In this document: positions 29,872 through 31,542 of the stretch, one piece after another
Layout of the letters: each line of letters starts with the position of its first letter
Numbering within the stretch: the first letter of the stretch is position 1
Source of the DNA: Malassezia japonica
Taxonomy: Eukaryota; Basidiomycota; Malasseziomycetes; Malasseziales; Malasseziaceae
Direction: 5' to 3'
Assembly (NCBI RefSeq): GCF_029542785.1
Contig: NC_083370.1
Location: 372,001-436,000, forward strand
Length of the DNA stretch: 64,000 bases
Notes under the pieces: model-generated
Seen by the model: only the letters and a program-made list of their open reading frames with translations
What the model was told of the DNA's origin: nothing
The model's database searches: none
Translations under genes and position numbers: made by a program

Positions 29872-31493
29872 CTATCCACCCGGCACTTCTTCACGGTGCA
29901 CACCCCGCGGGCGGTCCTTGCTTTTCTCGCCGGCCAGGTCGCCGTACCAGTCGCGCGAGAGACCCGCCTTGGAGCGGTCCGACTCGTTAAACGGCCCTTT
30001 GAGCTTGCCGGTAAAGTTTTTGCGGACCTCTTCGCGAAACACGTCGACGGGGCTCAGCGGCGTAGGGCTCGTGGCACACAGGTACGTCAGCCAGCGGTGG
30101 CCCGCGGAGACGTGAGTGATCTCGTCGAGGTGGATCACCTCGAGTGCCGCGACCGAGCGCGTGTCGCCGGCGACGCCAAACTTGCGGATCGTCTGTGGAT
30201 TCACATCGAGGCCCCGCGCTTCGTGGACGAGGTGGATGATGGCTGCGTGAGCGAGGATACGTACACAGGCGCGCATACAAACTCTCGGACGTCTCGACGG
30301 CCGACTCCCACAGGCCGTGGTGCACCGGCAGTGCGCCAAAGTAGCTGCCCATCTCCATGAGGCGCTTTTGCAGGAGCGTAAAGTGCTTGGCCTCGTCTTG
30401 TGCGACCTTGAGAAAGTCGGAGTAGAACTGCGTAGGGAGCGACGCAGGAGGGCGTGGATTGTCGTCCGTGCGCATCGCAGCAGCGCTCAGGCGCGGCGCG
30501 CGGGCGATAATGCTGCGTCGGTCAGTCGAGCGACGTACTCCCAAGCCAAATCGATCGCCCACTGCTCGATATTCGCGAGCGCATGGAGGAGCGCAATGCG
30601 GCTGCGCTCCGTGCCGGCCTTACCGCGCCGCCCTTCGTGGCCGGGATCGACGCGGTGCTCGGACGGGAGACGCGGCGGCCATTCCGGCGGTGTTTCTTGG
30701 TCCGGCACGGCCCACTGGCCGTTGGCGTCCCAGCGCCCGCCGCCGACCGTGCGGCACTGCCCGCTGCGAAAGGCCTCGGTCGCGTACTGTGTGTAGGCGA
30801 CCTTGGCCAGCGGCTCGGGCGTCGCGAGGATCAGCGCGGCCCAGGCACAGAGCGTGCGCGGCGCAGGCTCCGGGCGCGGCACGGCGGCCCAGTCGAACGA
30901 CGGCGGGTTGTGCGCATCGCCCTCTGGCTTCGCCTCGTGCGGCGCGTCACGGGGGGGCTGCGCAAAGGCTGCGTGAGGCGCGCAGCGTACCTTCCGAGAC
31001 AGGGCGAATTTCCACGAGCTCCCACACCGATTCTCCGTCGCGGACGTCGTCGGTCGGCGGTCCAATCAGCACATCGTCCCCTTGCACGTCCACCGGGTAT
31101 ATACACGACGACAGGCCCGTCGACGACTCGCCTGAGCTCAGCTGAAAATCATATTGCTGCGTGAGAAAAGCGACGTACATGCCACCTGCGTGAGCGCGAG
31201 CACGTACGGGCTGCGTCAGCCGATGCACGTACCAAACCACGACCAAGTCCTCTATTTCGTCGTCGCCGCGCGACTCGAGCGGCGCGCTCTCGAGCGGCGC
31301 GCCGAGATGAGGGCACGCCGCCTCCATGCAGTAATATCTCGCTTGGCCATCGTCCGCGAACGAAAAGAGCACTGCGTGAGCCAGCGCACATACAGACAGA
31401 GTGGTACGTCTGTGCCACGCTGTTGCGCAGCGTAATATGATGGCGTGCGGCGCCGTCGAGCGCCGCACGCGCTCCGATACGCACCCAGGGCAT
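29872..31493 (-). CDS. Rieske [2Fe-2S] domain fused to ferritin-like DUF455 domain
   Basis: 487 residues from eight exons: 31394-31493, 31233-31371, 31208-31210, 31179-31185, 30991-31156, 30539-30968, 30265-30512 and 29872-30242. Six introns are 22 nt and one is 26 nt. Residues about 1-125 are a Rieske domain with C53-x-H55 (ACPHLG) and C80-P-W-H83. The second box exists only after joining the 3-nt and 7-nt exons. Residues about 255-480 are DUF455 (ferritin-like) with candidate diiron ligands E273, E322-x2-H325, E372 and E405-x2-H408. The Rieske part could pass electrons to the diiron site, suggesting a self-contained oxygenase; that is inference, and the substrate is unknown. Start at 31493 follows a CACGTG shared with the DUF1748 gene; 31517 is an alternative. 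Confidence 0.85.
31157..31232 (-). other. Micro-exon cluster: three 22-nt introns flanking 3-nt and 7-nt exons
   Basis: Within the Rieske-DUF455 gene. Read on the minus strand: intron 31211-31232, exon CCC (31208-31210), intron 31186-31207, exon GTGGCAT (31179-31185), intron 31157-31178. Every intron begins GTACGT and ends GACGCAG or CACGCAG. Joining TG, CCC, GTGGCAT and CAA gives Cys-Pro-Trp-His-Gln, the obligatory second Rieske ligand box. Removing the whole block as one intron would destroy the ligands and the frame. Confidence 0.88.
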
Positions 31494-31507
31494 GCCCGTC
31501 AGAGCAC

Positions 31508-31513
31508 CACGTG
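31508..31513. promoter_or_regulatory. CCACGTGGC E-box, Rieske-DUF455/DUF1748 promoter
   Basis: Extended CCACGTGGC in the 49-bp gap between divergent starts at 31493 and 31543. Confidence 0.5.
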
Positions 31514-31542
31514 GCATCTACGCCGCTTTCCGCATCACCACA

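Follow-up and report, generated by a model that had tools for sequence, protein, structure and literature searches.

Tandem exons of 3 and 7 nt between 22-nt introns at the predicted Rieske ligand box of a Malassezia japonica gene

How small can the exons and introns of a gene become together, if the residues encoded at their junctions are those predicted to hold an iron-sulphur cluster? This question is raised by a locus in a 64-kb stretch of Malassezia japonica DNA (64,000 nt, hereafter the window), for which a first-pass annotation had proposed that three consecutive 22-nt introns flank exons of 3 and 7 nt, and that only the removal of all three introns yields the second pair of Rieske ligands. 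We found the proposed introns and exons on the minus strand at 31232-31157, in a gene predicted to encode a Rieske-DUF455 fusion protein, and describe here the structure of the cluster, its setting among the introns of this genome, the traces that it appears to have left in deposited proteins of related fungi, and the readings that compete with it.

The Rieske-DUF455 gene and its micro-exon cluster

The gene model (Table 1) contains six introns of 22 nt and one of 26 nt, and its stop codon ends at 29872. Translation from the ATG at 31517 gives a protein of 495 aa, and translation from the ATG at 31493 one of 487 aa; judged by the N-termini of the orthologues P0010, P0012 and P0025, the second ATG is the likelier start. 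The ligand positions given in the first-pass annotation (C53-x-H55 and residues 80-83) are right if this second ATG is used, while numbering from the first ATG places the ligands at C61/H63 and C88/H91. The single intron of the model that is not 22 nt long (30538-30513; ...CTGACCGACGCAG) has its branch motif farther from the 3' end.

The spliced product is a predicted Rieske [2Fe-2S] domain protein, which matches PF00355 with 31.9 bits (cut-off 20.3), contains both the C-x-H and the C-x-x-H ligand pairs, and has a C-P-W-H that aligns with the C-P-W-H of chain 3d89_A, a Rieske domain-containing protein. The DUF455 half matches PF04305 with 299.2 bits (cut-off 34.3). A whole-protein search, in which 8,000 candidates were scored, returned 1,353 relatives; the best 120 of these 1,353 share 41-77% identity with the query, and those among them with a named organism are basidiomycete fungi. 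The best matches are from Malassezia sp. CBS 17886 (62% identity) and M. furfur (67% identity). In a scan of prokaryote genomes, there were 34 pattern matches and four relatives from bacteria, and a search of viral contigs for relatives gave 24 pattern matches, none of them confirmed.

Table 1. Features of the Rieske-DUF455 gene, in window coordinates and in the order of transcription
Feature	Position	Strand	Sequence	Remarks
Rieske-DUF455 fusion gene	29872..31517	-		8 coding exons, 7 introns
22-nt intron A, upstream of exon 2	31372..31393	-	GTATGTGCGCTGGCTCACGCAG	
Cluster intron 1, 22 nt	31211..31232	-	GTACGTGCATCGGCTGACGCAG	splits Cys codon TG^C, phase 2
3-nt exon	31208..31210	-	CCC	
Cluster intron 2, 22 nt	31186..31207	-	GTACGTGCTCGCGCTCACGCAG	splits Pro codon CC^G, phase 2
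7-nt exon	31179..31185	-	GTGGCAT	
Cluster intron 3, 22 nt	31157..31178	-	GTACGTCGCTTTTCTCACGCAG	between His and Gln codons, phase 0
22-nt intron downstream of Rieske domain	30969..30990	-	GTACGCTGCGCGCCTCACGCAG	
26-nt intron, DUF455 half	30513..30538	-		removal restores frame into conserved DUF455 sequence
22-nt intron, DUF455 half	30243..30264	-		

The cluster accommodates three GT-AG introns and two exons within 76 bp. Exon 2 ends in TG, the exon that follows the cluster starts with CAATATGATTTT, and the spliced junction TG/CCC/GTGGCAT/CAA reads C-P-W-H-Q and continues as C-P-W-H-Q-Y-D-F, the second Rieske ligand pair of this family. We enumerated all sets of zero to four GT-AG introns of 18-100 nt, with exons of at least 1 nt, between 31299 and 31120. 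Three of the 1,124 resulting sets (the empty set included) restore the box, defined as CP with C..H.Y[DNEK][FLIV], and all three use both CCC and GTGGCAT; only one of them has three introns and keeps EDLVVV, the other two depending on a further intron whose removal costs conserved residues.

Consistent with the original proposal, all three splices are needed for the Rieske box, as partial retention truncates the protein and full retention loses C-P-W-H. Retention of one or two cluster introns gives products of 100-111 aa, skipping of the 7-nt exon gives a product of 94 aa, and a single intron of 76 nt, the structure that the first-pass annotation had itself named as speaking against its claim, causes a frameshift and a product of 93 aa. 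Two wrong products keep the frame, one in which all three introns are retained (517 aa) and one in which CCC is skipped (494 aa). Against the Rieske Pfam model (cut-off 20.3 bits), the N-terminal piece scores 34.2 bits when fully spliced and 16.9 bits, below the cut-off, when all three introns are retained; the CCC-skipped piece reaches 22.1 bits, which is above the cut-off, yet its cysteine ligand is lost. At the level of the sequence, we consider the predicted tandem micro-exon structure confirmed, with tiny coding exons, both within the 15-nt limit of a micro-exon, that lie between complete introns and that the conserved protein appears to require; that the cluster introns are in fact spliced is what we infer.

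Introns of 22 nt and the probable removal of the cluster introns

The commonest intron form of this genome is exactly 22 nt long and has a rigid layout, consisting of the 5' site GTACGT, seven variable bases, a branch-like CTNAC, and then NCAG. The branch-like A, at position 17, is 5 nt from the 3' end, and there is therefore no space for a pyrimidine tract before the 3' site; the exon bases that flank the introns show little consensus. The strict pattern GTACGT-N7-CTNACNCAG has 1,784 matches genome-wide and none in the reversed control. The window has 28 intron-like strings with a length of exactly 22 nt, where 20 dinucleotide shuffles gave 0.15 on average. Over 264 kb of contiguous sequence (the window and a further 200 kb), 132 of the 196 intron-like strings of 14-40 nt are 22 nt long and 25 are 23 nt long, compared with one string of 22 nt and 16 strings of 14-40 nt in the reversed 264 kb. 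This census sees introns of the form GTRNGT ... CTNAY ... YAG up to 100 nt, with the nearest 5' site taken, and misses others, including two in the gene under study (30990-30969, which begins with GTACGC, and 30538-30513). The three cluster introns all have the form that defines the 22-nt class, and their splice-motif scores lie at the 90th, 79th and 79th percentiles among 133 introns. The genome-wide uniformity of this class may be more remarkable than the single gene described here.

Small exons are found elsewhere in the genome as well. Besides the exons of 3 and 7 nt, the 264 kb contain exons of 16, 18, 21 and 37 nt, and 30 loci identified with a loose pattern include exons of 8, 10, 14, 15, 15 and 18 nt between introns of 22-26 nt, the 18-nt exon being in both lists. 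Tiny exons thus recur in this genome, and the Rieske-DUF455 gene has the smallest among those seen with both flanking introns. Genome-wide, the loose pattern ACGCAG-N(1-20)-GTACGT is barely above chance (86 matches against 77 in the control), CTNACNCAG-N(1-20)-GTACGT has 39 matches against 11, and a strict 22-nt intron followed by GTACGT within 7 nt occurs four times against none, two of the four being in the Rieske-DUF455 gene; assuming uniform bases, about three such places are expected by chance (1,784 x 7 / 4,096). At two sites on contig C7 (C7:195976-196006 and C7:497177-497211), the stretch between a strict 22-nt intron and a GTACGT is 3 nt (CTC) or 7 nt long. These are possible further micro-exons, unproven because of this chance expectation.

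We consider it very likely that the cluster is an ordinary spliceosomal structure at its extreme, in which intron definition acts on one short intron after another and both micro-exons are used. Each 22-nt intron would be a self-contained module that is recognised within itself, and three such modules would be spaced by only 3 and 7 nt within precisely those codons that specify the C-P-W-H ligand box. Given the size of the spliceosome, two introns with such spacing would leave no room for simultaneous engagement. Neighbouring modules would therefore be removed sequentially, in whichever order, and partly spliced, frameshifted messages would decay. Exon definition can reasonably be taken to be impossible at such an exon size.

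The first-pass annotation stated that either pure intron definition or an ordered, recursive mechanism must apply. Sequential removal by intron definition is what we continue to infer; recursive splicing is not needed, because each intron comes with a complete set of signals (5' site, branch motif and 3' site), for which plain intron definition suffices. The 7-nt exon does start with AG/GT (CAG/GTGGCA), in which GTGGCA does not fit GTRNGT. Used as a 5' site, this AG/GT would remove the 7-nt exon and break the frame, giving the 94-aa product, and the C-P-W-H product is independent of it.

Genes for Prp8, Slu7, Prp18 (in two pieces) and SF1 (in two pieces) were found in the genome, as was a U2AF-large-like gene, whose 224 bits are below the model cut-off of 310 and whose model is also matched by other RNA-binding proteins. 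The presence of these components argues for an ordinary spliceosome that works by intron definition. From work on budding yeast, one might expect a genome with such a short distance between branch and 3' site to have lost Slu7 or Prp18; this expectation failed, both being present here.

Relatives, misread proteins and alternative readings

The comparison set comprised 128 proteins, of which 120, 2 and 5 came from searches and one, P0123, is the unspliced frame of the window itself. The box, taken as CPWH.Y[DNK]F or any C..H.Y, is present in 112 of them and absent from 16 (P0002, P0009, P0012, P0024, P0028, P0029, P0035, P0037, P0054, P0087, P0093, P0105, P0123, P0124, P0125 and P0128), most of which, leaving out P0028, P0037 and P0087, look partial, misread or unspliced. 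All 128 were tested with the back-translation pattern AG/YCC/GTRNGY ... AG/NTGGCAY/GTRNGY ... AG/CARTAYGAYTTY, and both micro-exons with their introns fit five: P0123, which is the window's own, and P0124, P0125, P0128 and P0035. P0128 back-translates to introns of 28, 29 and 26 nt with exons YCC and NTGGCAY, and P0035 to second and third introns of 69 and 50 nt, intron 1 not being recovered. No shuffled version of the read-through part fitted in 5,000 trials for P0128, 2,000 for P0035 or 5,000 for P0124. Conservation in relatives, which the first-pass annotation had suggested checking, extends to P0128 and P0035, and the micro-exons appear to be conserved between species, as read from proteins and not from DNA.

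They are not present in every relative. C-P-W-H is uninterrupted in P0010, P0025 and P0126 (P0126 has the look of a genomic frame that was never spliced), and the two extra introns are therefore not universal. P0001 (Malassezia sp. CBS 17886) has an intact box and is indistinguishable from a correctly spliced model. P0093 and P0105 start with a frame that fits AG/C CCN TGG, so that the position of the first intron may be older than Malassezia, with the qualification that the base before AG in P0105 does not fit a YAG end.

Deposited proteins of M. furfur and M. nana carry what, by back-translation, are the errors to be expected from a micro-exon structure. The M. nana protein (P0012) can be read as TG, an unspliced 22-nt consensus intron, CCC and CARTAYGAYTTY, and TG followed by a 22-nt consensus intron and CCC was found only in P0012, P0123 and P0124 among the 128 proteins. 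M. furfur P0002 corresponds to TG+GTGGCAY+CARTAYGAYTTY, as CCC skipping would produce, and reads W-W-H. P0054 fits AT, a 22-nt consensus intron and CARTAYGAYTTY, a fit otherwise seen only in P0123, P0124 and P0125 among the 128. In the DUF455 half, P0002 and a relative, P0009, have the insertions EYVRRSRS and CMCLSDAA compared with the other aligned relatives; these look like short introns, a multiple of three nt long, that remained in these deposited or predicted proteins. The deposited M. psittaci protein P0024 (381 aa) lacks the Rieske half, possibly lost through gene prediction at the micro-exons.

The W-W-H of M. furfur also bears on the alternative that survives best, namely that CCC is skipped regularly or conditionally, giving a V-W-W-H-Q isoform that lacks the cysteine ligand and is Rieske-off beside the full form. 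CCC skipping keeps the frame, and the deposited M. furfur protein reads exactly as it predicts. That model, however, looks like a gene-finder artefact, with an absent N-terminus and insertions that resemble retained short introns, and excerpts of work on plants and Fusarium describe tiny exons as misannotated (PMC8831610, PMC12940212). We regard regular or conditional skipping as improbable, although it is compatible with sequential removal of self-recognised introns. A shade less probable is its extension to a splicing switch, in which CCC skipping would tune the protein between Rieske-on and Rieske-off in a genome without a lower limit to exon size and with self-recognised 22-nt introns; the partly spliced and 7-nt-skipped products would then end early by frameshift.

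A further alternative holds that the three introns are retained, and that 66 extra bases, a 517-aa protein and a replaced box reflect a decayed Rieske site. The 66 bases are free of stop codons and in frame, which leaves the all-retained frame open, and two database proteins of source 'lgn', P0124 (10 member sequences, 3 contigs) and P0125 (1 member), carry this reading as near-identical unspliced frames, which argues against an assembly error of one genome. The retained product, however, has lost C-P-W-H and falls below the Rieske cut-off, the cluster introns match the genome consensus, and sequences of other lineages accommodate the micro-exons between introns that differ in length; in P0128, the introns add up to 83 nt (28+29+26), and reading through them breaks the frame. 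Retention is thus very improbable, and spliced micro-exons remain our preferred reading. P0125 has a V-to-M change in intron 1 that would turn the 5' site GTACGT into GTACAT, which reflects either natural variation at the splice site or an error of sequencing.

Least credible of all is a recent tandem duplication of one intron, as suggested by three similar 22-mers in a row, since their pairwise identities (17, 15 and 15 of 22) compare with an average of 14.9 for 133 introns, 18% of whose pairs reach at least 17, and since introns that fit related sequences at these positions differ considerably in length.

Comparison with known systems

The cluster would be a natural test of minimum exon and minimum intron size together, at a site where errors would destroy a predicted iron-sulphur centre; with it, RNA sequencing can directly address steric limits, the order in which introns are removed, and intron definition. 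The structure may also explain why the Rieske box is absent or garbled in some deposited M. furfur, M. nana and M. psittaci proteins, and the annotation of Malassezia genomes would gain from a micro-exon rule.

The statements on other systems that follow draw, where a paper is cited, on excerpts of that paper. An exon of 3 nt is not, as had been suggested, at or near the smallest known, since 1-nt exons with transcript evidence are described in plants (PMC8831610) and in Fusarium (PMC12940212). The plant cases include 1-nt exons in APC11 and VPS55 and adjacent exons of 5 and 12 nt in a rice transcript (PMC8831610). Like the exons described here, plant micro-exons are conserved, occur in tandem and are widely misannotated; they have been validated by RNA-seq and by sequencing of RT-PCR products (PMC8831610), whereas the Malassezia cluster, with three introns and two exons in 76 bp, is known from sequence. 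The 1-nt exon of the Fusarium CYP621A P450 genes, termed the first for a fungal gene, resembles our case in being a fungal micro-exon within a conserved motif that gene finders missed and that both frame and motif require (PMC12940212). It is, however, a single exon in an intronic region of 139 nt, supported by SRA reads (PMC12940212), in contrast to two consecutive micro-exons between 22-nt introns that are read from sequence.

Among basidiomycetes, the P450 genes of Phanerochaete chrysosporium likewise have small introns, with introns from 21 bp and a shortest exon of 6 bp (PMC1184071); there, small introns of 45-55 bp are frequent, and the excerpts report no 3-nt exon (PMC1184071). Near-minimum introns, of about 25 bp or of 18-20 bp, are known from Paramecium, Nyctotherus and nucleomorphs, where intron definition has also been discussed (PMC5014332); these are protists and nucleomorphs rather than a fungus, and micro-exons are not the subject of the excerpted text (PMC5014332). 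A 23-nt intron of Trichomonas has been called among the shortest known (PMC12316389).

Within Malassezia, introns have been described as very short (PMC7426719). For M. restricta, a median of 30 nt and a mean of 37.2 have been tabulated (PMC9241646), and the annotation of its genome accepted introns down to 15 nt (PMC6473144). No report of Malassezia micro-exons appears in the titles and abstracts of the literature matches listed. In its domain order and its C-P-H and C-P-W-H motifs, the predicted protein resembles other Rieske-DUF455 fusions of the Basidiomycota, many of which are annotated with a plain C-P-W-H, unlike the split box of the window gene. What seems to be new is that two consecutive micro-exons, of 3 and 7 nt, occur together with three introns of only 22 nt, all within 76 bp, at a cofactor-ligand motif.
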